In this document: positions 5,722 to 32,559 of the stretch, piece after piece | How positions within the stretch are numbered: position 1 is the first letter of the stretch | Layout: every line of letters begins with the position of its first letter | Source: an uncultured Myxococcales bacterium | GTDB lineage: Bacteria > Myxococcota_A > Polyangia > Polyangiales > Polyangiaceae | Assembly: GCA_937902985.1 (NCBI GenBank) | Contig: CALFNG010000314.1 | Span: 1 to 32,785, forward strand | Length of the DNA stretch: 32,785 nt | Reading direction: 5' to 3' | Made by a program: the position numbers and the translations under genes | The notes under the pieces: model-generated | Seen by the model: only the letters and a program-made list of their open reading frames with translations | Told to the model about the DNA's origin: nothing | The model's database searches: none

Positions 5722-6735
<1,014 letters not shown>

Positions 6736-6830
6736 CGGGGAAGGGGGCGTGGTTATCGCACGGCGCAGCGGTGGAGACGAACGGCTTCGTGCTAGACGCT
6801 GTGGTAGAGAAAGCGTCCTCAGAGAAAGAC

Positions 6831-7784
6831 ATGGCCGCGACCCCCATCCTCGTGGACGACGTGCTCGAACTCGTCGGGAACACGCCGCTCATCGCGATCG
6901 CGGCGCCCGGTAGCTGGGGCGAGCGGGCTCGCGTCTGGGCGAAGATGGAGCAGTCCAACCCGGCAGGGTCGGTCAAAGATCGCATCAGCCTCGCCATGAT
7001 CGAGGAGGCCGAGCGCGACGGGCGCCTCAAACCGGGGGGGGTCGTGGTCGAGCCCACAAGCGGCAACACCGGCATCGGCCTGGCCCTCGTGTGCTCCGTT
7101 CGCGGGTACCGGTGCATCCTCGCGATGCCCGAGAGCATGAGCCTCGAGCGACGCCAGCTGCTCGAGGCTTTCGGAGCCGAGGTCGTGCTCACTCCCGAGG
7201 ATCAGCAGCTCGAAGGCGCCGTGGCCAAGGCGCGCGAGATCGCCGAGAGCACGCCCGGCGCCTTCATGCCGCAGCAGTTCGACAACGATGCGAACCCGCG
7301 CATCCATGCGGCCACCACGGCGCGCGAGATCCTCGAGGCGATGCGCGGTCTCTCGCTCGACGCCTTCGTCGCGGGCGTCGGGACCGGAGGAACCATCACC
7401 GGCGTCGGCGGCGTCTTGCGGCGGGAAGTGTCTCCGCGGCCGCGCATCGTGGCCGTCGAGCCCGACGCGTGCGCGACCATCTCGCGCGGCGAGCGCGGGC
7501 CGACGAAGATCCAGGGCCTCGCGGCCGGGTTCGTTCCGAAGAACTACCACGCCGACCTGGTCGACGAGGTTCGCACCGTGACAGACGCCGACGCGTGGAA
7601 GATGAAGACGGCGCTCGCCCGCGGCGAGGGCCTGCTCGTCGGCATCAGCGCGGGCGCCGCGGTGCACGTGGCCCTCGAGGTCGCGCGCGAGCTCGGTCCG
7701 GGCAAGAACGTCGTCACGATCCTGCCCGACACGGGCGAGCGCTACTTCAGCCTCGCGGAGTACTTCGGAGACGATACACGGTGA
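6831..7784 (+). CDS. cysK: Cysteine synthase A (O-acetylserine sulfhydrylase)
   Basis: PLP enzyme making cysteine from O-acetylserine and sulfide. PLP-lysine is Lys49 in NPAGSVKDR; the substrate loop TSGNTG is at about 76-81; the phosphate loop is GTGGTITGVGG; the C-terminal GISAG and LPDTGERYFS match the CysK subgroup. I place the start at ATG 6831 (317 residues, family-like). An in-frame ATG at 6771 would add 20 residues without family support. It is first in a run of six same-strand genes, and its stop overlaps the next GTG as GTGA. This gene serves free sulfide, whereas the cysM-type gene downstream probably serves the protein thiocarboxylate. Confidence 0.95.
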   Translation: MAATPILVDDVLELVGNTPLIAIAAPGSWGERARVWAKMEQSNPAGSVKDRISLAMIEEAERDGRLKPGGVVVEPTSGNTGIGLALVCSVRGYRCILAMPESMSLERRQLLEAFGAEVVLTPEDQQLEGAVAKAREIAESTPGAFMPQQFDNDANPRIHAATTAREILEAMRGLSLDAFVAGVGTGGTITGVGGVLRREVSPRPRIVAVEPDACATISRGERGPTKIQGLAAGFVPKNYHADLVDEVRTVTDADAWKMKTALARGEGLLVGISAGAAVHVALEVARELGPGKNVVTILPDTGERYFSLAEYFGDDTR

Positions 7785-8524
7785 AGGTCGACCGAGCGCG
7801 GGCGCGCGTTCTACTCGTCGGCGTCGGGGGGCTCGGTTGCCCGGCCGCCCTGGCGCTGGCCGCCGCGGGCGTCGGGTCGATCGGCCTGTGCGACGACGAC
7901 GAGGTGGAGCTCTCGAATCTCCATCGTCAGATTCTCTTCGGCGCCGCCGACGTGGGCTCGGCGAAGCTCGAGGCGGCGGCGCGGGCGCTGCGCGAACGGT
8001 TCGGGCCGGCGCAGTCGCTCCAGGTGCACTCGACCCGCCTCCTGCCGGACAACGCGGTGTCGCTCGTGCGCGACCACGACGTGGTCCTCGAGGGGAGCGA
8101 CAACTTCGCTACCAAGTTCCTGGCCGCCGACGCGTGCGCGCTCGCGGGCGTTCCGGTCGTTCACGCGTCTGCCGTCCGCTGGGTCGGCACCGCGCTCGCG
8201 GTCGGAGCCGCGGGGCGGCCGTGCTACCGGTGCCTCTTCGAGGACGTGCTTGGCGAGAACGCGCCGAACTGCGCCGAGGCCGGCATCCTCGGGCCCGTCG
8301 CGGGCATCGTGGCCGCCGCGCAGGTCGACCTCGCGCTGGCGCTGCTCGACGGCGAGGCCGTCGAGGGCCGGCTCGTCACCTTCGACGGGCGCACAGACGT
8401 CCTCCGTCGCCGGACCGTCTCGCGGCGCGCCGATTGCCCGTTGTGCGGGCAGCCCGCTGGCGCCCGCGCGCGCATCGATCGCATCGAACCCAACCGCTAT
8501 GTTTCGCCCGCTCTCGCGGGCTGA
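7781..8524 (+). CDS. MoeB/ThiF-type E1-like adenylating enzyme lacking the N-terminal RxxRQ segment
   Basis: It should activate the C-terminal glycine of the neighbouring sulfur carrier as an adenylate. GTG at 7781-7783 overlaps the cysK stop. The 247-residue protein opens almost directly at the nucleotide loop (GVGGLGCP, about residues 14-21), then DDDEVELSNLHRQ, the catalytic aspartate in EGSDN, CYRC and CPLC zinc pairs, and the NCAEAG cysteine. MoeB proteins normally carry about 25 residues before the loop, with RYxRQ giving the arginine finger to the partner subunit. Here they are absent, and no upstream in-frame start exists that does not lie inside cysK. There is no C-terminal rhodanese, unlike mycobacterial MoeZ. 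The missing segment appears on the product of 8814-9233. Confidence 0.93.
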   Translation: MKVDRARARVLLVGVGGLGCPAALALAAAGVGSIGLCDDDEVELSNLHRQILFGAADVGSAKLEAAARALRERFGPAQSLQVHSTRLLPDNAVSLVRDHDVVLEGSDNFATKFLAADACALAGVPVVHASAVRWVGTALAVGAAGRPCYRCLFEDVLGENAPNCAEAGILGPVAGIVAAAQVDLALALLDGEAVEGRLVTFDGRTDVLRRRTVSRRADCPLCGQPAGARARIDRIEPNRYVSPALAG

Positions 8525-8539
8525 GAGGAGAACCGTGAA

Positions 8540-8812
8540 ATGGAAACGATCGTCCGTATCCCGACCCCGCTGCGCACGCTGACCGGCGGGGCCGATGAGG
8601 TGAACGCCAGCGGGGGCACCGTCGGCGACGTCATCGAGGATCTCGAGCGCCGGCACCCCGGCATTCGCGACCGGCTTCTTGACGAGAAGGGCGTCCGTCG
8701 CTTCGTGAACATCTACGTCGGCGAAGAAGACGTCCGCTTCCTCGAGGGCCTGAAGACGGCGCTCAAGCCGGGCGACCAGATCAGCATCGTCCCGGCGATC
8801 GCCGGAGGCTGA
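8540..8812 (+). CDS. cysO: Ubiquitin-like sulfur carrier protein, ThiS/MoaD family, CysO-type
   Basis: A 90-residue beta-grasp protein ending in the diagnostic Gly-Gly (VPAIAGG). Its C-terminus would be adenylated and converted to a thiocarboxylate that donates sulfur for cysteine. Typical elements are VRIPTPLRTLTGG at the start, a DVIEDLERRHPGIRDRL helix and VRFLEGLKTALKPGDQISIVPA. The CysO assignment, rather than MoaD or ThiS, comes from context: E1-like enzyme before it, CysM-type synthase and JAMM peptidase after it, as in the mycobacterial mec-cysO-cysM cluster. A GAGAGGAG Shine-Dalgarno precedes ATG 8540. It ends one base before the next start. Confidence 0.93.
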   Translation: METIVRIPTPLRTLTGGADEVNASGGTVGDVIEDLERRHPGIRDRLLDEKGVRRFVNIYVGEEDVRFLEGLKTALKPGDQISIVPAIAGG

Positions 8813-8813
8813 G

Positions 8814-9233
8814 ATGAGCCGGCACGGTCGTCAGACCCGCCTCGCGGAGGTCGGCTCGGCGGGCCAGGCGCGCATCGCGGCGGCGACGGTCGACGTCGCC
8901 GTAGACGGACTCGCGGCCGAAGTGGCGACCCGTTACCTCGTGGGCGCCGGCGTCGGTTGCGTCCGTGTGCGAGAGCGTGGCCTCGCGGGCTCCGTCAGCC
9001 TCGCGGACATCGCGCGTTCGATCGACCCGGGCGTTCGCGTCGAGGTCGCGGTCGGCTCGGCGCGAGAGGCGGCTCCCGCGGGAGGTGCGGCACCGGGCGC
9101 CCACACCGTTCGCGATGGACTCGACGTGAGCGACTTTCGCGACCCCAGCGCGCGCGCCGTCGCGCGAGGCGCACACGAAGCGCTGCGGGCCCTCCGCACC
9201 GCGCTCGGCTCCGGGCCGGGGGGTGGATCGTGA
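8814..9233 (+). CDS. Degenerate E1-like half protein carrying the RxxRQ arginine-finger segment
   Basis: A 139-residue protein starting one base after the cysO stop, with GGAGG upstream, and overlapping the next gene as GTGA. Residues 3-7 (RHGRQ), then EVGSAGQARI and GLAAEVATRYLVGAGVGCVRV, align with the start of MoeB/ThiF proteins (RYxRQ, GxxGQxxL, the nucleotide loop, then YLxxAGVG). The glycine loop is replaced by VDGLAAE and the SNLxRQ loop is absent, so ATP binding is unlikely. SIDPGVRVEVAVGSA recalls the E1 strand NPxVxVE, and the C-terminal helix AHEALRALRTALG recalls the E1 scaffold helix. I infer a non-catalytic subunit completing the active site of the 7781-8524 enzyme. The family match is from reading only. 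Confidence 0.8.
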   Translation: MSRHGRQTRLAEVGSAGQARIAAATVDVAVDGLAAEVATRYLVGAGVGCVRVRERGLAGSVSLADIARSIDPGVRVEVAVGSAREAAPAGGAAPGAHTVRDGLDVSDFRDPSARAVARGAHEALRALRTALGSGPGGGS

Positions 9234-10183
9234 GTCGGCCCTCAGGGAACGGGGGCCGCCGCCTCGAGTCGGTCATCGACGGGGTCGGCAACACCCCTCT
9301 CGTTCGCCTCCGCAAAGTGACGAGCGACGTGCCCGACGTCGAGGTGTGGGCGAAGCTCGAGTTCGCGAACCCGGGAGGCAGCGTCAAGGACCGGCCGGCG
9401 CTCCGCATGATGCTCGACGCCCTCGCCGACGGCCGCCTGACACGCGACAAAATCCTGATCGACTCGACGAGCGGCAACACCGGGGTCGCGTACTCGATCT
9501 TCGGGGCTGCGCTCGGAATCCGCGTGCGGCTCGTCATGCCGTCGAACGTCAGCAAGGCGCGCAAGGACATCGCCAAGAGCTTCGGGACCGAGATCGTCTT
9601 CAGCGATCCGATGGAGGGCTCCGACGGGGCCATCCGCCTCGCGCGCGAGCTCGTGGCGAAGGACCGCAGCACGTACTTTTATCCCGATCAGTACTCGAAC
9701 CCGTCGAACTGGCGCGCCCACTACGACGGCACGGGGGTCGAGATCCTCGCCGCGCTGGGCGATCGGCTGACGCACTTCGTCGCCGGCCTCGGAACGACGG
9801 GCACGATGATGGGCACGACGCGGCGACTCAAGGAGCACCCTCGACCGATCGAGTGCGTCGCGATCGAGCCGGCCGACGCGCTGCACGGCCTCGAGGGGCT
9901 GAAGCACCTGGCCAGCAGCCTCGTTCCGCCCATCTACGATCCCAAGGTGCCCGATCGCATCCTGCCCATCACCACCGAAGACGGCTGGGACATGGCCGAC
10001 CGGCTCGCCCGAGAAGAAGGCTTGCACGTCGGCCACTCGTCGGGTGCCAACGTCTTCGGCGCCATGCTACTCGCGCGCGAAGCGCAGAAGAGCGGCCGCG
10101 GAGGCTGCGTGGTGGCGATCATCTGCGACCGGGGCGATCGCTACTTCGCCCCGATGAAGTGGGAGCGGCGGTACGTCTGGTGA
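9230..10183 (+). CDS. cysM: CysM-type cysteine synthase (protein-thiocarboxylate dependent)
   Basis: PLP-dependent synthase of 317 residues, GTG start at 9230 overlapping the previous stop. PLP-lysine is Lys53 in NPGGSVKDRPA; TSGNTG at about 80-85; phosphate loop GLGTTGTMMGTTRRL. VAGLGTTGT, the later VPPIYDP, and KDRPA (KDRIS in CysK) resemble mycobacterial CysM, which takes O-phosphoserine and CysO thiocarboxylate. At the position I align with the phosphoserine-reading arginine of mycobacterial CysM there is a lysine (GLKHL); this alignment is from memory. The C-terminus closes with YFAPMKWERRYVW. Adjacency to cysO and mec supports the role. Confidence 0.9.
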   Translation: MSRPSGNGGRRLESVIDGVGNTPLVRLRKVTSDVPDVEVWAKLEFANPGGSVKDRPALRMMLDALADGRLTRDKILIDSTSGNTGVAYSIFGAALGIRVRLVMPSNVSKARKDIAKSFGTEIVFSDPMEGSDGAIRLARELVAKDRSTYFYPDQYSNPSNWRAHYDGTGVEILAALGDRLTHFVAGLGTTGTMMGTTRRLKEHPRPIECVAIEPADALHGLEGLKHLASSLVPPIYDPKVPDRILPITTEDGWDMADRLAREEGLHVGHSSGANVFGAMLLAREAQKSGRGGCVVAIICDRGDRYFAPMKWERRYVW

Positions 10184-10288: not shown

Positions 10289-10810
10289 ATGCGCGACGTG
10301 AAGAAGCATCCTTGGGCAGAGGGAAATCTGGTGATCGGCCGGAGCATCCTCGAGCGGGTGAACGAAGAGGCGCGAGGGGCCTACGGATGCGACGAAGAGA
10401 GCTGCGGCTTCCTCGTCGGTCCCGCCGGCAACGCGGCCCGCGTCGACGGCATCGTGCCGATGGTCAACCGCGCGAACGCGCTGCACCGGCTCGAACCCGA
10501 GGCGTACCCCCGAACGGGGCACACGTACTTCGACATCGACTCGATGAAATTCGAGGGGGCCATCCGCCGCGGCGAGGCCGAAGGACGGCCGGTCAAGGTG
10601 CTCTATCACTCGCACCTCGACGTGGGCGCGTACTTCTCGGCGACCGACGCCGAGGTGGCCAAGATGGGGCAGGGCGAGCCGCCCTGGGACCTCGCGTACC
10701 TCGTCACGAGCGTCCGAGCGACCGGCGTCGACGATCGCAAGCTCTTCATCTGGGATCCCGCTACGAGCTCGTTCATCGAGAGCCGCCTCGAGGTCGAAGA
10801 GGGCTCCTGA
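10289..10810 (+). CDS. mec: JAMM/MPN+ metallopeptidase, Mec-type
   Basis: Zinc peptidase that in the CysO pathway releases cysteine from the CysO-Cys adduct and regenerates the carrier. The JAMM signature is exact: Glu37 in ESCGFLVG, then His107-x-His109-x7-Ser117-x2-Asp120 (YHSHLDVGAYFSATD). At 173 residues it is longer than the roughly 146-residue mycobacterial Mec, mainly by an N-terminal extension and a middle insert around residues 60-90. A Shine-Dalgarno-like GAGGGAGAG lies upstream of ATG 10289. The next gene begins two bases after its stop. Confidence 0.93.
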   Translation: MRDVKKHPWAEGNLVIGRSILERVNEEARGAYGCDEESCGFLVGPAGNAARVDGIVPMVNRANALHRLEPEAYPRTGHTYFDIDSMKFEGAIRRGEAEGRPVKVLYHSHLDVGAYFSATDAEVAKMGQGEPPWDLAYLVTSVRATGVDDRKLFIWDPATSSFIESRLEVEEGS

Positions 10811-10812
10811 CG

Positions 10813-12090
10813 ATGCGCGAGCGTGCGACGGCAGCCGCTGCGGCGTTCGCGATTCTCGCGAGCACGCGCGGCGCGGTCGCGCAGGCGCATGCGCCGATCG
10901 ACCGCCTCGCCGAGGCGTGGCGCGGCCTCGGCGCCGCCGTCGTGGTCGATCGACCTCGCTTTCTCAACGACGACGAGACCCTCGCCGTGGCCTTGCCCGA
11001 GCTGCCCGACGGGGAGTGCACGACGGTGGTCCTCCTCGGCGCGCGCGGATTGGGCTTTCACGTGCGCCTCGGAGAGGGTCGTGACGACGATCCGAACGCC
11101 CGCGTCCCCAGCGAGGCGGGCGCCCTCTCGATCGAGCGCTGCGGGGCGACGCTGCCGCGACGCCTGCTCGTGACCAGCGACTCGGGCCGGGGGGCGCTCG
11201 AGACGATTGTCGCGCGCTCGGCGCGGCCGCTCGAGCCGCTCCGGAGCATTCTGCCCGAGCGCACCGGCGGAAGCAGCCCCACCGCGCCCGAACCGGGGCT
11301 CTTGCCGGCCATGCCGCTACCGGAGAGGCGAGCGGAGCTCGCAGAGATGCGGGCGCGGCGCGACGGAGCCACGATCGCCACGCGAGCCACGTGGGCCTCG
11401 GGTGCCGACGGGAACGGCGCCGCCGAAGAGGTCCTAGACCCCGGGTGTCATTCGTTCCAGCTCTTCGCCGTCGATCCGCGCACGGCCAACCCTTCGCATA
11501 GAAACCGGCTCGACCTCGACGCCGAGATGCGCGACGCCTCGGGCGACCGTATCCTTGCCCGAGACCGCAGCGACGCGCCCGATGCGCGACTCGAGCTCTG
11601 CGTCGGCGAAACCACGCGAGTGGAGGTCGGGTTCGCCGGCTCCCCGCCCGACGCTCCGGTTCTCGTGACGCACGGGGTGTGGCCGATCCCCGATCGGTTG
11701 CCCACGGTGTGGGGGAGCGACGCGCGCGGCCGGATGGCGCACGTGCTTCTCACGCGGCATGTTCGCTCGCTACCCGGCGAGCCGGTCTTGCTTGCCCAGG
11801 GAGGCTCGGGGACGACACCGGTGCCGCTCTCCCTCGAGGCCGGCGCGTGTTACCTGGCGCTCGTCTCGGTCGTGCAAGGGGCGTCACGCGCGGTCAATCT
11901 GCGCGTTCGCATCAGCATGCACGACGCGTTCGACGATCGTGGCGTCGACGAGAACGGCGCGGTGGTCGCGTTCTGCGCCGGTGCTCGCACGAGCGCGTTC
12001 GCGGAGATCGAGGCGCGGGGGACCCCGCTCCTCGGCTGGGGCCTCGCCCTTTACCGGGTCGCGTCTGCGGTCTGGGAAGTGACGCCGTGA
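10813..12090 (+). CDS. Exported protein with three paired-cysteine repeat units
   Basis: The 425-residue protein starts with a signal peptide (RERATAAAAAFAILAS, cleavage near AVA-QA). The mature part contains three similar units, each opening with a cysteine before a beta strand (ECTTVVLL, GCHSFQLFAV, ACYLALVSVV), then a middle strand, and a second cysteine about 40-60 residues later (RCGATLP, LCVGET, FCAGAR). This looks like tandem beta domains held by disulfides. The downstream lipoprotein carries the same unit. No catalytic motif is seen, and I do not recognise a named family. Start at ATG 10813 is two bases after the mec stop; no functional link to cysteine synthesis is evident. Confidence 0.8.
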   Translation: MRERATAAAAAFAILASTRGAVAQAHAPIDRLAEAWRGLGAAVVVDRPRFLNDDETLAVALPELPDGECTTVVLLGARGLGFHVRLGEGRDDDPNARVPSEAGALSIERCGATLPRRLLVTSDSGRGALETIVARSARPLEPLRSILPERTGGSSPTAPEPGLLPAMPLPERRAELAEMRARRDGATIATRATWASGADGNGAAEEVLDPGCHSFQLFAVDPRTANPSHRNRLDLDAEMRDASGDRILARDRSDAPDARLELCVGETTRVEVGFAGSPPDAPVLVTHGVWPIPDRLPTVWGSDARGRMAHVLLTRHVRSLPGEPVLLAQGGSGTTPVPLSLEAGACYLALVSVVQGASRAVNLRVRISMHDAFDDRGVDENGAVVAFCAGARTSAFAEIEARGTPLLGWGLALYRVASAVWEVTP

Positions 12091-12147
12091 CGTCGCCCGC
12101 GCTCGACCCGTCCCGCATGCGCGGGTCGTCTGGCGCGATCGCGCTGG

Positions 12148-12180
12148 AGAGAAACCGCAAAGGCACGAAGGCACGAAATG
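12148..12180 (+). repeat. Dispersed-repeat-like sequence before the lipoprotein gene
   Basis: An A-rich stretch (core CCGCAAAGGCACGAAGGCAC) stands out from the GC-rich surroundings and contains the direct repeat GGCACGAA twice. Its core, CCGCAAAGGC, recurs in reverse at 15876-15885. It resembles a class of intergenic repeats I recall from many bacterial genomes, which cannot be confirmed here. Confidence 0.35.
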
Positions 12181-12218
12181 TTTGGTTCGGGGGCTGGTGC
12201 ATTCTCGAGTTCGTCGCA

Positions 12219-13907
12219 ATGGCCGCGTGCGCCTCGCTCGCCTTGCTCGCCTCGCTCTTGCTCGCCGGATGCGTCGGTCTTGCGCATGCCCCGGCGGGTG
12301 CGAACGCGGGGGCCGCGCTCCCGGCGCCGGGCACCGCGGCGGGCCAGCTGGACGCGCGCTTGCTCCTCGGCGACCTGACCGCGCGCGCCTCTCGGCTGGG
12401 CGCGGGGACGCCCGCGCTGGTCGCTTCGTCGCAGGCGATCGACAATGGCTGGGTCGGCGGCTTCATCGACGTGCCCGGCGATGCCTGCGTTCTCGGGTAC
12501 GCCCGAGGCTCGTCGTCGATCGACGACGTCGACGTCGCGATCTACTCCGAAGACGGGACCACGCTCGCGGTCGACGAAGGGCGCGACGTTCACCCCACGG
12601 TCCTCATCTGCGCGCCGCACCCGGACCGGATGTACCTGACCGCGCACATCGTCGAGGGCGAGGGCTTCGTTGCCGTGGGCGCGCAGCTCGTGCCCAAGGA
12701 TCGGGCGGTCATCGTGGCCCGGGCGCTGGGCGCGCGCGGCTACGCGGGGCAAGGGCCGCGCGCGGCCGAAGCGTGGCCCGGGCTCGACGACGCGGTCAGG
12801 CATCACCGTGGCGAGCTCGGCGGAGCCTGGCAAGAGTTCCGCCGTGTGGCCCTCGCCATCGACGCGCGGATGCCTACGTACGCGGCGTTCCCGCTCGACG
12901 CCGACGAGTGCGTCGACGCGGTGATCGTACCCGACGACGACGTCGGTCCGCTCGACGTCGAGGCCTACGATGACCAGGGTCGGGTCGTGGCGCGCGCCCG
13001 CGAGGGAGCCGGAACGCGGACGCTCACCGTGTGCTCGCCCGTCCCGATGGCCGGCACGCTTGCGGTCCGGCCGCACGTCGGGCGCGGGCTCGCAGCGGTG
13101 GTGCTCGCCCGGACGCCCGGCGACGCGAGCCGCGATCTCGCCGCGGCGCCCGACGTGGCCTGGGTCACGCCGTCGCTCCCGATCGACAAGGCCAAGAGCG
13201 CTCGCGACGCGCTGCTCGCGAAGAGCGGCTACGACGCCGCCGTGACCACGACCTCGGGCACCCTGAGCCTCGGGCACCGGGCCCGGGTCCCGCTCGAGCT
13301 CAAGGGCATCGCGGGGTCGTGCGCACGGATCGACGTGGTCGGCGGCGCGCCGCTGGCGCTCCTCGACGCTCGCGTATGGAGCGACACGGGCGCGCTCCTC
13401 GCCTCGGCGGAGGCGTCGTCGGCGCTCGCTCTCTTCGTGTGCGCTCGCGTGGCCGCGCACCTCGAGATCGAGACCCGCGGCCGTCCCGGTCCCTTCGTGT
13501 TGACCGTCCGATCCGAGCGGTGGCGAGACGCTAGCTTCGAAGCGCACCCCCTGGCCGCCTCGCGCATGCTCGCGCGCGCGGCGGCGGGCCCCGACATGCT
13601 TCTCGACGGCAAGGAGCAAGCGACACGCGAGCTGGTTCTCGACGGTGAGCGCATCACGTCGTGGAGCGAGACCATCGCGGCGCGCAAGTGCCTGCGAGCG
13701 ACGGTCGGCGTCCAGGGGGACGGGGCGGGGGTCGAGGCCCGCGTCTTCGAGGGGAGCGACGAGCTCGATCGCTCGGAGGCTGCGCATGCGGCGAGCGTGC
13801 GCGCGTGCGCCACGACCGAGGCGCCGCGCGCAGTGCGATTCGAAGTCCGCGCGTCTGCAGGCCACGTCGACGCCGTGCTCGGGGAGCGCACCTCGAGTCG
13901 GCCCTAA
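12219..13907 (+). CDS. Lipoprotein with four paired-cysteine beta repeats
   Basis: Start chosen at ATG 12219 because it gives a lipoprotein signal peptide ending in the lipobox LLAGC (cysteine at residue 18). An in-frame GTG at 12087, overlapping the previous stop, would place about 44 residues with no signal character ahead of it. The 562-residue protein holds four units, each with a first cysteine near the strand start (DACVLGY, DECVDAV, SCARIDV, KCLRATV) and a second 40-50 residues on (LICAP, TVCSP, LFVCARV, VRACATT). The unit between them follows D-V-x-V-x-x-D-x-G-x-x-LA. The fold resembles prepeptidase C-terminal-like beta sandwiches, a guess. Probably anchored in the envelope. Confidence 0.8.
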   Translation: MAACASLALLASLLLAGCVGLAHAPAGANAGAALPAPGTAAGQLDARLLLGDLTARASRLGAGTPALVASSQAIDNGWVGGFIDVPGDACVLGYARGSSSIDDVDVAIYSEDGTTLAVDEGRDVHPTVLICAPHPDRMYLTAHIVEGEGFVAVGAQLVPKDRAVIVARALGARGYAGQGPRAAEAWPGLDDAVRHHRGELGGAWQEFRRVALAIDARMPTYAAFPLDADECVDAVIVPDDDVGPLDVEAYDDQGRVVARAREGAGTRTLTVCSPVPMAGTLAVRPHVGRGLAAVVLARTPGDASRDLAAAPDVAWVTPSLPIDKAKSARDALLAKSGYDAAVTTTSGTLSLGHRARVPLELKGIAGSCARIDVVGGAPLALLDARVWSDTGALLASAEASSALALFVCARVAAHLEIETRGRPGPFVLTVRSERWRDASFEAHPLAASRMLARAAAGPDMLLDGKEQATRELVLDGERITSWSETIAARKCLRATVGVQGDGAGVEARVFEGSDELDRSEAAHAASVRACATTEAPRAVRFEVRASAGHVDAVLGERTSSRP

Positions 13908-14074: not shown

Positions 14075-15862
14075 ATGACCTCTCTCGGCGAACCCCTACC
14101 TTCCCGCGCGACCTCCGGCTCCCGTGCCGCGACCCGACTCGAACTGGCCCCCCGTTTGCGGCGTGCGCTGCTCATCGCGACCGCCGCCGTCGCGGTCCTC
14201 ATTCACATTCCGGGCCTGCGTACGCCGCTCCTGCTCGACGACTACACGCAGCGCGCGATGGCCGAGGGGCGATACCCGTCACCGCCCGGGCCTTTTCAGC
14301 TCTACGACTTCATCGACGACGCCAACCGCGCGATCCTGTTGGATCGGGGCATCCTCCCGTGGTGGTCGCACCCGAAGGTGGTGATGCGCTTCTTGCGCCC
14401 CCTTTCGAGCGCGCTCCTCTGGGTGGACTATCGAATCGTCGGCGGGAACCCGTTCTGGGGTCACCTGCACTCGTTCTTGTGGTGGGCGGCGGCCTGCTTC
14501 GCGGTGCACGCCCTGCTGCGCCGTCTCTTCACGTCGCGTGTCGCGTGGCTCGGCGTCGCGGTCTTCGCCCTGGCGCCATGCCACGCGCTTCCGCTCTCGT
14601 GGATGGCGAACCGCGAAGAGATCGTGTCGACGGCGCTGGGAACGGTCGCGCTCACGGTCTACCTGCGCTGGCGTGAGGAGCGCCGCGCCCGCGACGGCAT
14701 CCTGAGTCTGGCGCTCTTCTCGGTGGCCGCGCTCGCGGGCGAGTACACGCTCTGCTTCGCCGGGTATGCCGTCGCGGCCGAGCTGGTGATTCGACGCGAG
14801 TCGATTCCTCGAAGGCTGGTCGGGCTCGCGTGCTTCGCGCTGCCTCTCGTCGGCTACGCGGCGATCCATCAGGCGCTGCGTTACGGCGCCTTCGGGATCG
14901 GGTACTACCACGACCCGATCGGCGACCTGGGCGCGTACGCGGCGAGCGCTCCGCGCCGCCTGGGCGTGCTCTTCGCCACGGCGTGGCTCGGCGTGAATGA
15001 CGTCGCGTGGCTCAACGAGTCGGATTGGAAGATCGCCCTCTTGACCCTCGGGGCCGCCGCTTTTCTCGTCGTACCCGTCGCGCGAATGCTCCGCGAACTC
15101 GACGCGCCCCTGCGCGGGCGCGCGGTGACGATGCTCATGGGTTCGGTTCTGTCGATGGCCCCGGTGATGGCCGTGGATGCGTCGGCGCGCCTGCTGCAGG
15201 TCCCCATGATCGGCGTGAGCGCCGTGGTCGCGCTGCTCGTCGACCATGCCTGGTTTCCGGCGACCCCGCGACCACGCCGCGGGGCCGCCGAGCTCACGGA
15301 GCTCGTGGTCCTCGGGCTCGCGTTCATTCACTTCTTCCGGGCGCCGCTGGATACGTTCCTTGCTCAGAGCGCGACGCGGACCTGGGCCTCGGCCTTCGCG
15401 GCGCGGCTCGGCTCGCTGTCGGAGCGGGCCGACGGCAAGTCGAGGGTGACCATCCTTCGCGCCAACATCTCGCAAGCGATCTTCTTCGCGCCGCTCGTGA
15501 TCGAAGGGCCCGACGGCTCCGAAGCCCGCGTTCGAACGCTCACGCTGCGTTCGGGGCGCTGCCTCCTCCGGCGGACCTCGGCCCGCGCCTTCGAGCTGAT
15601 CGGCGGGGCAGGGGGGCTCTTCCCGGTCGGACCGGACGACCTGCTCCGCGACGTGCCGATCCATCAGGGAGAGCGAATGGAGCTCGATGGCATGCGCGTG
15701 ACGCTGCTCGAACTGCACGACGACGGTTCGGCGCATCGCGCGCGGTTCGAGTTCGATCGCGACCTCGACGATCCGTCGATGCTCTGGCTCGTGGACGGAA
15801 CGTATGGCTTCCACGAGCAAAAGTTGCCGGCGGTAGGCTACGGCGAACTCCTGGACCCCTAG
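14075..15862 (+). CDS. Polytopic membrane protein, GT-C glycosyltransferase-like
   Basis: A 595-residue inner-membrane protein with roughly ten to twelve hydrophobic segments between residues 30 and 430. The first helix is followed by RTPLLLDDYTQ (Asp55, Asp56), an acidic pair in the first loop as in GT-C enzymes that use lipid-linked sugars. The loop RFLRPLSSALLWVDYRI and helix-rich pattern also fit O-mannosyltransferase/TMTC-like proteins. The last 130 residues form a soluble, beta-rich domain (VTILRANISQAIFFAPLVIEG onward). Donor and acceptor are unknown. The start codon follows a strong hairpin; a TTG about 27 codons downstream is the only other early start noted. The next gene downstream, an acyltransferase, is convergent. 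Confidence 0.72.
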   Translation: MTSLGEPLPSRATSGSRAATRLELAPRLRRALLIATAAVAVLIHIPGLRTPLLLDDYTQRAMAEGRYPSPPGPFQLYDFIDDANRAILLDRGILPWWSHPKVVMRFLRPLSSALLWVDYRIVGGNPFWGHLHSFLWWAAACFAVHALLRRLFTSRVAWLGVAVFALAPCHALPLSWMANREEIVSTALGTVALTVYLRWREERRARDGILSLALFSVAALAGEYTLCFAGYAVAAELVIRRESIPRRLVGLACFALPLVGYAAIHQALRYGAFGIGYYHDPIGDLGAYAASAPRRLGVLFATAWLGVNDVAWLNESDWKIALLTLGAAAFLVVPVARMLRELDAPLRGRAVTMLMGSVLSMAPVMAVDASARLLQVPMIGVSAVVALLVDHAWFPATPRPRRGAAELTELVVLGLAFIHFFRAPLDTFLAQSATRTWASAFAARLGSLSERADGKSRVTILRANISQAIFFAPLVIEGPDGSEARVRTLTLRSGRCLLRRTSARAFELIGGAGGLFPVGPDDLLRDVPIHQGERMELDGMRVTLLELHDDGSAHRARFEFDRDLDDPSMLWLVDGTYGFHEQKLPAVGYGELLDP

Positions 15863-15900: not shown

Positions 15901-17109
15901 TCAGCGGGCCAGGCGGTCGCGCAGCTTGAGCGATGGTTTCTCGACGAGGACGTGCAAGACGTACGAGAACGCGAGAGACGCGAGCACGAGGACGGCGACC
16001 GAGAGCGGCCAGACGGCGGTCATCGACCAGCCGCCGCGGTCGACGAGGTCGCGCGCCCGCGGCGTGATGAGCGCGTAGCAGACGGGGATGTGCACGAGGT
16101 AGACGCCGTAGCCGAGCGTGGCGATCCTGCGGAAGATCGGGGCCGAGAGCGCGCGGCGCACCCACCCGTCGCCCCCGTGCAGAATGAGGAGCACCCAGCC
16201 GAAGTACATGATGCTCGTGAGCGTTCCCCACGAAAAGACCTCGACCAGGCGGCCTGCGCGTTCGCCGAACATGGTCGGCTGGAGGAGAATCCATAGGCAG
16301 GCGAGCGACGGGAGCGCGAGGGCAGCCCGCGCGCGAGGGCTCTCGAGCCATGCCGTGATGGGCGCCCGCCAGCGATAGTGCACGTAGGCCAGGATGATGC
16401 CGGCGACGAGCGTGTCGCAGCGCGTGTGCGTGCGAATGTACATGTCGACGAACTCCGTGCCCGAGCCCCAGCCGAACGGGTGCAGGTAGAGGAGCAGACG
16501 CGTGAAGAACGTGGAGCTCCAGAGACCAACGAGCATGGTGAGGCGGCCGACGTCGCCCACGATCTTCCGCAGCGCGAAGAAGAGAAACGGCACGACGAGA
16601 TAGAACTGCTCTTCGAGCGCGAGCGACCAACCCCAGGGCATCACGACGTTGTCGCGATGGTTCGACATGTAGTTGGTGACGTACGTGTACTCGAACGGCA
16701 GGTTGTGCCGCTGGTTGGCCGTCAGGGCCGTCGTCACCACGAGGAAGGTGAGCACGAGGTAGTAAGACGGGAACGTGCGGAACACGCGGCGCAGGTAAAA
16801 GCGCTTCACGTGCTGCGAGCCCGACGTCTCGATCGAGCGCAAGAGGATCGATCCGATGAGAAAGCCGCTCAGCACGAAGAACATGTCCATCCCGAAGAAG
16901 ACGGACATCGATGTCGTGGCCCACGCCTGGCTCATCGGCAGGTTGTTGTAGATCTTGAAAATCTGCGTCACGTGCCACTGCACGACGGACACGATCCCGA
17001 GCACGCGCATCCCGTGCAAGGCCGGGTAACGGTTGTCGAGCAGGTCGAGCTCGAGGAAGCTTCGAAGCGAATCGGTCTGCGTTGCGGCGACGGGTACGGA
17101 GGTCGTCAT
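15901..17109 (-). CDS. Acyltransferase 3 family membrane protein (OafA-like)
   Basis: Integral membrane O-acyltransferase family, which acetylates or acylates surface polysaccharides, lipids or antibiotics. The 402-residue protein has about ten membrane segments. Family landmarks are the N-terminal LHGMRVLGIVSVVQWHVTQ with the conserved histidine (His46), FFVLSGFLIG at about 77-86, the basic loop RFYLRRVFRTFPSYY, WSLALEEQFYL at about 161-171, and a last helix ending in EKPSLKLRDRLAR. The substrate cannot be read. A decayed second copy lies directly upstream on the same strand, so this is the surviving member of a tandem duplication. Convergent with the GT-C-like gene. Confidence 0.92.
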   Translation of the reverse strand: MTTSVPVAATQTDSLRSFLELDLLDNRYPALHGMRVLGIVSVVQWHVTQIFKIYNNLPMSQAWATTSMSVFFGMDMFFVLSGFLIGSILLRSIETSGSQHVKRFYLRRVFRTFPSYYLVLTFLVVTTALTANQRHNLPFEYTYVTNYMSNHRDNVVMPWGWSLALEEQFYLVVPFLFFALRKIVGDVGRLTMLVGLWSSTFFTRLLLYLHPFGWGSGTEFVDMYIRTHTRCDTLVAGIILAYVHYRWRAPITAWLESPRARAALALPSLACLWILLQPTMFGERAGRLVEVFSWGTLTSIMYFGWVLLILHGGDGWVRRALSAPIFRRIATLGYGVYLVHIPVCYALITPRARDLVDRGGWSMTAVWPLSVAVLVLASLAFSYVLHVLVEKPSLKLRDRLAR

Positions 17110-17836: not shown

Positions 17837-18883
17837 TCACTCTTGCGCCAAGCTCCCGAGGAAAGCGTCGGCGCGAGCCTTGTCGATCTCACCGACACAG
17901 AGCGCAGGACCCCGGCGCGGCAGAAGCAGCATCCGGCAATGACCGCGCGCACCGGGCAGAGCGCAGGAGAAGACGAAGTCGAGGCCGAGGCCAAGGGCAA
18001 CGATGGCCAGGCCCGAAGCGAGCAGCGCCGGCGACGCCGCGCGTGCGCCGTCGACGAAGGCAGAGACCCCCACGTAGGTTCCGATCGCCAGGGACAGGAG
18101 CGCCACGTAGAGCGCCGCGCCCGAGAAGCGCACTTCGCGCGTCGCCCTCGCCAGAGATGCGCGTGGAACGAACACGTCGCGGTCCCGCAGCGTCCGCCCG
18201 AGGAGCTCGACGCGCCAGCGCACCCGGACCCCGCCGTCTTCAGCGACGGCAATCTCCGCAGGGGTCTTGTAGGAGAGAGCCCATCGGCCGAAGAGCCGCG
18301 CCGACTGCGAGACGAGCAGCAGGCCCGAGAGTCCGAGAAGGGTGGTGGCCACGGGACCGCGAGGCCGGGCGGCGATCTGACCGCGGAGCGGCTCCGAGGG
18401 CGCACGGACCCGCCGGGATACGCGGCTCAGCACTCCGCCGAGGCCGCCGCGAACGATGGCCGTCAGGGCGTCCACCATGTCGGGCGCGCGTTCGCCGAGC
18501 GCCGGGCCGAGCAACGTCAGCGCGTCGAAGGGCGTGTGCGCGGCGAGCCAGATCCACTGCGACGCGGCAACGCTGGCCGAAGGGGAGTCGGGCGGAGGGT
18601 TCGCGGCGAGCGCGTGCGCGGCCAGGGCCCTCGCGAGAATTCGCTCGTCGGCCGTGGCGGGCCCGCGACCGAGGACGTCGAGCGCGTTCCCGAGATCGGT
18701 TGCGGCGTCGTCTCGGGAAAGACTACGCTCGGCGGAGAGCTGCGCGAGCCCTTCGCCAAAAGCCTCGGGACGCCGCGCTTCGGCGGCCGACTTCGACAGC
18801 GCGTGGGTGATCGCGGCGAGGTCGACGATGCGCGGATGCCTGGAGAGCGCATCGTAAGCGCGCACGTCGCCGTCGACTTCCAT
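17837..18883 (-). CDS. Membrane protein of unknown function
   Basis: A 348-residue protein. The first 165 residues are soluble and helical, rich in Ala and Asp, with no recognised motif. Three hydrophobic segments follow: about 176-198 (TTLLGLSGLLLVSQSARLF), 253-276 (GAALYVALLSLAIGTYVGV) and 283-306 (LLASGLAIVALGLGLDFVF). Between the first two lies a beta-like stretch (EDGGVRVRWRVELLGRTLRD) resembling a small membrane-proximal domain. The C-terminus (RRGPALCVGEIDKARADAFLGSLAQ) has a PH-like look. No function is assigned. It diverges from the small gene at 19003 over 119 bp. Codon usage is typical of the window. Confidence 0.75.
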   Translation of the reverse strand: MEVDGDVRAYDALSRHPRIVDLAAITHALSKSAAEARRPEAFGEGLAQLSAERSLSRDDAATDLGNALDVLGRGPATADERILARALAAHALAANPPPDSPSASVAASQWIWLAAHTPFDALTLLGPALGERAPDMVDALTAIVRGGLGGVLSRVSRRVRAPSEPLRGQIAARPRGPVATTLLGLSGLLLVSQSARLFGRWALSYKTPAEIAVAEDGGVRVRWRVELLGRTLRDRDVFVPRASLARATREVRFSGAALYVALLSLAIGTYVGVSAFVDGARAASPALLASGLAIVALGLGLDFVFSCALPGARGHCRMLLLPRRGPALCVGEIDKARADAFLGSLAQE

Positions 18884-31515: not shown

Positions 31516-32559
31516 TTACAGGCAGTAGCCGTTGACACACGCCTTCGGGCTGACGCAGTAGCGGCCGACCGCGGGGTCGCAGTCGCTCCCGAGGTTGGCG
31601 TTGGCGCCGCATACGGCGAACGTGCCCTTGGCGATCGTCACGGCCTTGCACGACTCGCCCGTCGCGGCGCATCCGCCGCCTTCGGCGTCGCATCCGGGAT
31701 AGCAGTCGCCGTGGAGGCAAACGCTGTCGGGATCGCACGAGTTCGCGAGCGAGCCCTGGTTGCCGTCGTTCCGGCAGGCGAACCGCGCCTGCTGGTCGGG
31801 GATACAACCGCCATTGACGCAGACCTGCCCGGCGACACATTGGGAGCCGGCGTCGGCCGACGAGCAGGGGGCGACGCAATGCGTATCGACGCAGACCGCG
31901 CCGCCCTGGCAGTCCCCGGTCGAGGCGCACACTCCGGGGTTCACGCTGCAAGCGCTCCGGTTGAAGTCGCACTGGTATCCGGTCGGGCAGAAGGGCGCCG
32001 CGTGGCTGCACGGTGGGACGCACGTTCCGTCGACGCACGAGTCGCCGGCGACGAGGCATTGCGTGCCGTCGGAGCAGAGCTGGCTCTGCGCCGCGCATAG
32101 CCCGTCGATGCACTTGGCGCCGACGGTGGTCGCACACTGCGCGTCGGAGTTGCAGGTGGCACCGCCGCCGGCCTCGGCCACGAAACCACCGTCTTCCGGC
32201 GTTGCGTCAAGCGTGAACGCCGCGTCGAACAAGCTCGCATCGAACGACGAACTTGCGTCTCGGATGTCGATGCTCGCATCGGTCTCGGGCAGGAGGGGGG
32301 GAAGACACTGCAGCGTCTGGTTCGCGAGCGTGCACACCGTTCCCGTGGGGCAGAATCCACACTCGCCGCTCGGCGATGCGTCGTCGGCGTAATAGGGAGC
32401 CGAGGGCACGCACTCGCCTCGCGACGCGCAGGCGTATCCGGGGCCGCAGTCGTAGGCCGTCTGGCATTGAACGTAGGAGTTATTGTCGGGATAAATCGGA
32501 CAGCCTCCGAGCAGGGCGGCCCCGCCGACGACCATCATGCCAAGCAAGAGACGCTTCAT
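31516..32559 (-). CDS. Cys-rich repeat lipoprotein
   Basis: A 347-residue lipoprotein: MKRLLLGMMVVGGAALLGGC with the lipobox cysteine at residue 20. The mature part contains many units of the form C-x(5-8)-C-x(5-7)-C-x-x-x-x-C (for example DCGPGYACASRGEC, AKCIDGLC, DSCVDGTC, AVCVDTHC, QVCVNGGC, SVCLHGDC), a Dickkopf/EB-like pattern common in myxobacterial surface proteins. A linker rich in Asp, Ala and Ser (about 88-130) precedes the second block of units. Disulfide-stapled surface adhesin or recognition modules are likely; no enzyme motif. ATG at 32557-32559. The 32560-32785 stretch upstream is probably its promoter region. Confidence 0.88.
   Translation of the reverse strand: MKRLLLGMMVVGGAALLGGCPIYPDNNSYVQCQTAYDCGPGYACASRGECVPSAPYYADDASPSGECGFCPTGTVCTLANQTLQCLPPLLPETDASIDIRDASSSFDASLFDAAFTLDATPEDGGFVAEAGGGATCNSDAQCATTVGAKCIDGLCAAQSQLCSDGTQCLVAGDSCVDGTCVPPCSHAAPFCPTGYQCDFNRSACSVNPGVCASTGDCQGGAVCVDTHCVAPCSSADAGSQCVAGQVCVNGGCIPDQQARFACRNDGNQGSLANSCDPDSVCLHGDCYPGCDAEGGGCAATGESCKAVTIAKGTFAVCGANANLGSDCDPAVGRYCVSPKACVNGYCL

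Follow-up and report, generated by a model that had tools for sequence, protein, structure and literature searches.

The two genes considered here lie side by side on the + strand of the window, that is, the whole stretch of 32,785 nucleotides that was analysed, and they are found where the original prediction had placed two adjacent genes of exported proteins: gene A (10813..12090) is an open reading frame for a secreted protein of 425 amino acids with three units, and gene B (12219..13907) one for a lipoprotein of 562 amino acids with four. Judged by eye, A carries a signal peptide and B a hydrophobic stretch together with the lipobox LLAGC, whose cysteine is Cys18 (codon 12270..12272, + strand); with signal peptide and lipobox cysteine present, B classifies as a bacterial lipoprotein. 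This Cys is aligned in 40 of 41 rows, the remaining row having a gap, it is preceded by G, A or S in 36 of 36 rows, and D or E follows it in none of the 36. The lipid anchor probably places B in the outer membrane, and A would be exported without an anchor.

Gene A starts 2 bp past the stop codon of a gene for a Mec-like JAMM peptidase (10289..10810; Pfam PF14464), and this gene belongs to a cysteine-synthesis cluster, likewise on the + strand. The linked cluster starts with a cysK-type cysteine synthase (6771..7784; NCBIfam TIGR01139, above cut-off), followed by a ThiF/MoeB-type E1 (7781..8524, start approximate; Pfam PF00899), a ThiS/MoaD-type, CysO-like sulfur carrier with a GG end (8540..8812; Pfam PF02597, the MoaD and SAMP1 models scoring just below cut-off) and a CysM-type cysteine synthase (9227..10183; best NCBIfam model TIGR01138, below its equivalog cut-off). 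The GG-ended carrier, E1, CysM and JAMM peptidase are thus co-located as in the CysO-CysM-Mec gene set, a pathway assignment which we take over from mycobacteria; the JAMM protein is presumably of the cytosolic type.

The units of A are A1 (10936..11226, Cys69/Cys110), delimited by the AlphaFold2 model and profiles and the weakest of the seven, A2 (11374..11688, Cys212/Cys263) and A3 (11782..12069, Cys346/Cys388), the latter two recognised by profile pairs, model and structure matches. Those of B, all likewise on the + strand and recognised by profile pairs and the AlphaFold2 model, are B1 (12408..12704, Cys90/Cys131), B2 (12825..13121, Cys231/Cys272), B3 (13239..13520, Cys368/Cys408) and B4 (13608..13901, Cys491/Cys530), with additional structure matches for the last three. 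Apart from the lipid cysteine, every cysteine of the mature proteins belongs to a unit pair, the two further cysteines of B (Cys4 and Cys18) both lying in the signal region. A spacing of 40-60 residues had been claimed for the pairs; in the window it is 39-51 (39-42 in six units and 51 in A2). The literal turn motif D-x-V-x-x-x-D-x-G-x-x-L-A had to be given up as a signature of the units, since a regular expression found no exact match in A or B; by eye, B1, B2, B3 and A2 carry a relaxed form of it, D-[VA]...G..[LV]A, of which B4 has a degraded version and A1 and A3 have none.

That three units in A and four in B are repeats of one another is borne out in the main by profile comparison. Alignment of unit profiles with hhalign gave probabilities of 96.8 (B1-B2), 96.4 (A2-B3), 96.3 (B2-B4) and 92.2 (A3-B4), compared with a best value of 19.7 among 42 reversed and 3.3 among 126 column-permuted controls; 14 of the 21 unit pairs exceed the best control and the remaining seven do not. 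With one unit left out, the profiles still recover each family of units by way of its top-scoring orthologs (E 4e-11 to 5e-4), the window's own copies scoring worse (B1 0.15, A1 2.8, A3 0.065, A2 0.02), and A1 is the weakest member also here, with E 5e-4 for its best held-out ortholog. One might argue that the units are not homologous at all and that their common layout arose by chance or convergence in sequence rich in beta strands and in GC, given an identity to B1 of only 8-21% in the other units, the seven pairs below the best control and the missing literal motif. Against this, two thirds of the profile pairs beat all 168 controls, the leave-one-out profiles find the unit families, and the fold predicted by AlphaFold2 is common to the units; a chance repeat was therefore rejected, and as a reading of the whole it is extremely improbable. 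For six units non-homology is already very unlikely, with A1 set apart as being weakly joined by sequence. Judging from the profile alignment, in which A1-A3 align to B2-B4 with 97.8% probability, A and B are paralogs. In other families, assignment of units to B1-B4 individually is ambiguous, except that B1 is mostly the best-scoring counterpart of the unit that comes first in the four-unit gene.

Structure prediction, which had been proposed as a check of a shared fold, yielded jelly-roll sandwiches for both proteins (pLDDT 89 and 85): each unit is modelled as an eight-strand sandwich, A1 having one extra short strand, and in all seven the cysteines occupy equal positions relative to the strands. 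The best solved matches of B2, B3, B4, A2 and A3 are Tk-SP, subtilase, collagen-binding/PPC and GOLD jelly rolls; A1 has weak matches of its own and nothing strong, and the structure comparison returned no row for B1 itself. The top score overall is that of B2 with a protease accessory domain (9ues; Z 10.6, rmsd 2.2 over 103 residues, 16% identity), and A2 reaches Z 9.7 with the accessory domain of the same system. The 50 Foldseek matches listed per model (insecticidal toxins, among others) had TM-scores of at most 0.34 and were set aside, and the sole match of the unit profile among PDB sequences was a Cas12 chain (E 4.6).

With the PPC and clostridial collagen-binding domains, the units of A and B share the eight-strand jelly roll. 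B matches 3jqw, 5sv5, 4hpk, 1nqd and 1nqj with Z 8.2-9.9 over aligned ranges that span B1 into B2, and the PPC structure 5sv5 is matched with Z 8.7 over 90 residues. Unlike these domains, A and B have paired cysteines in every unit and form stand-alone tandems of three and four units without a peptidase, B being lipid-anchored besides. PPC domains usually, although not universally, are C-terminal to a secreted peptidase; Pfam and NCBIfam found no peptidase domain in A or B, which hence lack this usual context. Membership in PF04151 proper was rejected: the Pfam search gave no match to PPC in A or B, nor in any of 36 family B proteins, and as they remain below the gathering cut-off we call A and B PPC-like. 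L182, a four-unit relative from a different family of the order with its eight cysteines in pairs, scores 37.6 bits with PPC against a gathering cut-off of 25.9; it is the one to pass among ten relatives, L178 (23.8), L194, L193, L192 and L185 being below the cut-off and four giving no row. NCBIfam was uninformative on A, B, L182 and L178, as was Pfam on L102 (a weak Talin row only), two L100 proteins, L093 and L098. A and B are named by neither Pfam nor NCBIfam models.

Likeness also extends to the GOLD-type sandwich of p24/TMED proteins, found with Z 9.7 for B2 (7rrm), 9.4 for B4 (5gu5) and 9.2 for B3 (5azx), while the p24/GOLD Pfam profile matched neither A nor B up to E 10. The p24/TMED proteins are eukaryotic membrane proteins with a single GOLD domain, in contrast to the bacterial tandems of A and B, and the second cysteine of p24 GOLD probably sits one strand later. 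The two conserved cysteines of p24 GOLD are presumed to form a disulfide (PMC3918385). Binding roles have been reported for a PPC domain (PMC8799719), and the accessory domain represented by 9ues, like B2 and A2 in fold but there part of a protease, is said to bind two Ca2+ ions (PMC3599501). Similar by description rather than by alignment is an archaeal protease domain, a single domain on a protease and not a tandem, with eight predicted strands modelled as jelly-roll-like; it binds collagen, and mutation showed a disulfide between Cys 303 and 338 that guards against autocleavage (PMC3158780). In the same source the cysteines of halolysins are located in loops that vary, and its description of the domain does not use the name PPC (PMC3158780).

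None of the seven cysteine pairs varies across the 39-41 aligned rows. Among 339 non-redundant units from the fetched loci, 336 have both cysteines, three neither and none a single one; the training of the unit profile on Cys-bearing units and the many orthologs of training units in the count leave Cys-free relatives under-sampled here, although single-Cys units, expected to be penalised less than double losses, were seen in 0 of 339. As the cysteines are lost only together, the reading of a fixed disulfide is supported, and each unit is very probably pinned by a bond of its own. Taken with the fold, the matches to PPC-type structures and the PPC match of L182, this supports the earlier guess that the units are prepeptidase-C-like sandwiches of divergent sequence held by a fixed disulfide, the bond itself being predicted.

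At E 1e-3, A was matched in 56 and B in 85 of 116 genomes searched, the own genome included. The pair occurs in much of the myxobacterial order, and single units or short tandems in fewer genomes elsewhere in the phylum; the unit searches scored 150 of 412 first-look candidates in one case and 35 per genome in another. Of 31 family loci, picked for having A and B on one contig, 30 have A on the same strand as B and upstream of it, and at L073 the two lie apart in opposite orientation. By assigned starts, 16 of 22 named loci show an ATGA-type overlap, the final sense base of A doubling as the first of B. Among the matches listed, no literature on these proteins was found by title and abstract start.

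Adjacency to the cysteine cluster had been considered a possible coincidence, which is not borne out and was rejected: of the 57 relatives that have both genes, 44 have B no more than 11 kb from CysM (CysM at E 1e-100), compared with 5 of 75 genomes for MTAP within 20 kb of B. MTAP (E 1e-60) was the sole control gene, lies 6.4 kb from B in the window as compared with 2.0 kb for CysM, and had its coordinates recorded just for genomes also having B. Among the window neighbours tested against the fetched loci, which were selected by A/B matches and sufficiently long contigs, those retained are the cysteine-cluster genes.

We consider it rather likely that A and B are a tandem-duplicated, non-catalytic and disulfide-braced envelope binding pair made beside the cysteine locus. 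One structural disulfide, from the start of the third strand to the end of the sixth, would lock each PPC/GOLD-like jelly-roll module and lend it durability outside the cytoplasm; the lipid-anchored B, probably in the outer membrane, and the unanchored A may join into one complex. Its seven specialised jelly rolls would bind a protein or glycan ligand in the envelope or outside the cell, in the manner of PPC and collagen-binding domains. The two genes may belong to the sulfur-carrier cysteine-synthesis locus or adjoin it, an arrangement that probably serves co-expression.

The linkage could also reflect old synteny in a slowly rearranging region, without co-expression or functional tie, which we regard as less probable while giving it appreciable weight. 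B occurs without CysM at threshold in 27 of the 85 genomes with B and CysM without B in 19 of 77, so neither requires the other, and the pair and the cysteine gene are divergent in all eight other-family loci having one nearby, so a single operon cannot be the general rule. Mere synteny, however, fits poorly with the low linkage of the control gene, with the persistence of the CysM linkage in other families, where 14 of 21 genomes have it, and with the absence of the two genes immediately downstream of B in the window from all 40 fetched loci. The strict conservation of the pairs and the linkage to CysM would also suit redox-active cysteines, by which A and B sense or buffer the thiol/disulfide state of the envelope, reporting on or acting with the cysteine cluster; yet some 40 residues separate the partners, which lie on two strands and form no CxxC, Pfam and NCBIfam gave no redox-enzyme family match for A or B, A-B is present where CysM matches are only distant (for example G028, G067, which is 81% complete, G032 and G018), and single-unit relatives elsewhere in the genome retain the pair, making such a role quite improbable.

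Slightly better placed, though unlikely as well, is the idea that A and B, in the usual manner of PPC domains, are accessory modules, here acting in trans, of a secreted protease or another enzyme with its gene elsewhere, and help in its secretion or in docking its substrate: the fold matches to subtilase and collagenase accessory domains speak for it, and the lack of a peptidase domain in both proteins, together with a conserved neighbourhood of cysteine genes whose JAMM member we assume to be cytosolic, against it. With a similarly small chance, the A-B pair, disulfide-clasped and PPC-like, may serve the carrier-protein cysteine-synthesis locus as its envelope arm, binding a sulfur-containing ligand or tuned to cysteine supply; if true, a cytosolic cysteine pathway and cysteine-dependent exported proteins would be one functional unit kept through the order.

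What the analysis defines is a cysteine-clasped PPC-like module, unnamed by Pfam and NCBIfam in these proteins, which gives many hypothetical proteins a fold and a profile and indicates where their disulfides are likely to lie; and the long-lived linkage to the cluster poses the testable question whether cytosolic cysteine supply is coupled to exported disulfide proteins.

Judged by sequence profiles, the repeat relationship among the units of the secreted protein (A1-A3) and the lipoprotein (B1-B4) is real. Profiles built from ortholog alignments (up to 41 rows) gave profile-profile probabilities of 96.8 (B1-B2), 96.4 (A2-B3), 96.3 (B2-B4), 92.2 (A3-B4), 88.6 (B2-B3) and 85.0 (B3-B4), and 14 of the 21 unit pairs scored above 19.7, the best value among reversed control profiles (n=42), permuted profiles (n=126) reaching 3.3 at best. 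Seven pairs stayed below 19.7: A2-A3 (14.9), B1-B4 (11.8), A1-A2 (5.1), A2-B4 (3.8), A1-A3 (1.8), A3-B1 (1.4) and A1-B1 (0.2). In a leave-one-family-out test, with E-values computed for a nominal database size of 8000 and the best reversed sequence at 0.014, the best orthologs reached 1e-10 (B1), 6e-8 (B2), 4e-11 (B3), 2e-9 (B4), 5e-4 (A1), 9e-6 (A2) and 2e-7 (A3); the window copies were weaker (B1 0.15, B2 0.003, B3 4e-8, B4 3e-5; A1 2.8, A2 0.02, A3 0.065). Searching the window's own genome (563 contigs, 8.3 Mb) with the unit profile recovered the seven units, one single-unit protein on contig C48, itself a member of the profile's training set, and one further place each on C446 (E 5e-4) and C89 (0.03), a lower bound since 150 of 412 first-look candidates were scored. 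The C48 paralog (L102:1396-1941, minus strand; open frame of 181 aa) keeps the cysteine pair and shows a clear DLDL...G turn.

The cysteine pair is strictly co-conserved. Gene A (10813-12090), starting 2 bp past the end of the JAMM gene, encodes six cysteines behind a signal peptide, and gene B (12219-13907), following after 128 bp, the lipobox cysteine and eight more in the mature part (signal regions judged by eye). In the 41-row alignments, window included, both cysteines are kept in every row aligned at both columns (40, 40 and 40 rows for A1-A3; 40, 41, 39 and 39 for B1-B4), and they are the sole invariant columns of a 76-unit alignment. The 1061 unit matches over all fetched loci collapse to 480 distinct sequences, of which 471 carry both cysteines, three carry neither and six are unaligned at one end; among 339 representatives below 60% identity, 336 have both, three neither and none a single one. 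The three cysteine-free units, all found in other classes of the phylum, have Pfam PPC matches that fall short of its cut-off. Spacing between the cysteines is 40-42 residues in 346 of the 471 units.

Neither A nor B has a match above cut-off in Pfam or NCBIfam, B yielding one sub-threshold DUF7712 row (E 0.15), and PPC was matched by none of 36 family B proteins. A protein of another family of the order (L182; 589 aa, four units, eight paired cysteines and a further one at a lipobox-like position) does match PPC (37.6 bits, cut-off 25.9), in a region also matched by the B profile (E 1.2e-8). Nine other relatives gave five sub-cut-off PPC matches (at most 23.8 bits, L178) and four without a match; no PPC row was obtained in Pfam for L093, L098, two L100 proteins and L102. 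AlphaFold2 models from 23-sequence alignments (A: mean pLDDT 89.2, pTM 0.62; B: 85.0, 0.67) predict an eight-strand sandwich for each unit, with one additional short strand in A1, and helical linkers in between. Counting A1's two short initial strands as one, the first cysteine sits at the beginning of strand three, either no more than a residue from its start or as one of its two opening residues, and the second cysteine no more than a residue from where strand six ends. Structure comparison, in which Z-scores no more than 1 apart are tied and top values between 7 and 8 are often seen, placed B2 on the jelly roll of Tk-SP (Z 10.6; 103 residues at rmsd 2.2), B on the ColH CBD (9.9) and the PPC structure 5sv5 (8.7), B2, B4 and B3 on p24 GOLD domains (9.7, 9.4, 9.2), A2 on 9ues (9.7) and A3 on SubHal 5fax (8.0); matches limited to A1 reached 7.0 and 6.6 at most, and none limited to B1 was among those listed for B.

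With respect to origin, A1-A3 align with B2-B4 over the full-length profiles (97.8%) and the closest unit to B1 is B2; therefore, a three-unit ancestor was probably duplicated in tandem, one copy acquiring a unit. The order A then B on the same strand is found in 30 of 31 family loci (picked for both genes on one contig), the two being separated and oppositely oriented in L073; B is split into two pieces in L091, and L078, L082, L088 and L090 have just two A units above threshold. The 22 named related loci, all from MAGs labelled mostly Myxococcales, Polyangiaceae or Labilithrix sp., show an ATGA-type A/B overlap in 16 cases, with start codons assigned by us. Among nine other-family loci, five (L092, L093, L096, L098, L100) have a four-unit gene with a three-unit gene immediately upstream; three plus three units are detectable in L099 and in L097, which ends with its contig, and L094 and L095 carry at least three unit genes. 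Across the phylum, the B profile (E 1e-6) matched 23 of 188 genomes, all except one in the same order, and the unit profile (E 1e-3; 35 first-look candidates scored per genome) at least 28 of 143, 11 of them outside the order. Contig C12 of G098 (L184 and neighbours) bears at least four unit-bearing open frames at about 7.4-12.3 kb, a local family expansion, together with CysM at 2.7 kb; in G060, a two-unit protein (L065:17154-17786, plus strand) lies beyond the cysteine cluster.

The pair is also linked to the cysteine cluster. A cysK, thiF, cysM or JAMM gene lies inside the fetched stretch in 26 of 31 family and 8 of 9 other-family loci; other window neighbours recur in the same 31 loci less frequently (peptidase gene at 5722, seven; gene at 17837, eight; pfkB, six), and the non-cysteine neighbours were found in none of the nine. 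By whole-genome coordinates (CysM threshold E 1e-100), B and CysM are at most 11 kb apart in 44 of 57 relatives with both (family 30/36, outside 14/21), the remaining 13 comprising one pair 386 kb apart and twelve on separate contigs. The control gene MTAP, which in the window is 6.4 kb away from B, lies within 20 kb of it in 5 of 48 family genomes and 0 of 27 outside. Pair and cysteine gene are divergent in all eight other-family loci having one, and the linkage has therefore outlasted rearrangement. It should also be noted that four genomes with B and distant CysM matches only (G028, G067, G032, G018; 33-45% identity) and two with the cluster and no A-B (G011, G051) count against a strict tie; at threshold, B occurs without CysM in 27 of 85 genomes and CysM without B in 19 of 77.

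Some further observations concern the surroundings. In L113, L117, L121, L122 and L124, thiF is still upstream of A-B, with no cysK, cysM or JAMM match in the fetched stretch. A small ORF at 8814-9233 (plus strand), between the sulfur carrier and CysM, has no Pfam match and an N-terminus resembling ThiF/E1 (RQ..L.EVG..GQ.R), and is possibly a degenerate E1; the motif occurs in 14 of 66 scanned loci (11 genomes), is kept in G028 and L121 without CysM and JAMM nearby, and in G028 its frame continues into A. Two genes that follow B immediately in the window were found in none of the 40 fetched loci: one for a glycosyltransferase-like membrane protein (14075-15862, plus strand; slightly under the Pfam PMT_2 cut-off) and, adjoining it, one for an acyltransferase-like membrane protein (15901-17109, minus strand; named by eye). 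At 31516-32559 (minus strand), the ORF list shows a putative lipoprotein that is very rich in cysteine and in which segments of the C-x(5)-C type recur.

Regarding function, VhaC is reported to bind collagen through its PPC domain (PMC8799719), and halolysin SptA to have a jelly-roll-like extension protected by a disulfide mapped through mutation (PMC3158780). Residues other than cysteine are invariant in individual units (R96, R137, R284, R370 and R449 in 36 rows of B; R150 and R173 in 39 rows of A), and such per-unit arginines suggest unit-specific contacts. The data fit a predicted role of A and B as non-catalytic binding modules with structural disulfides.
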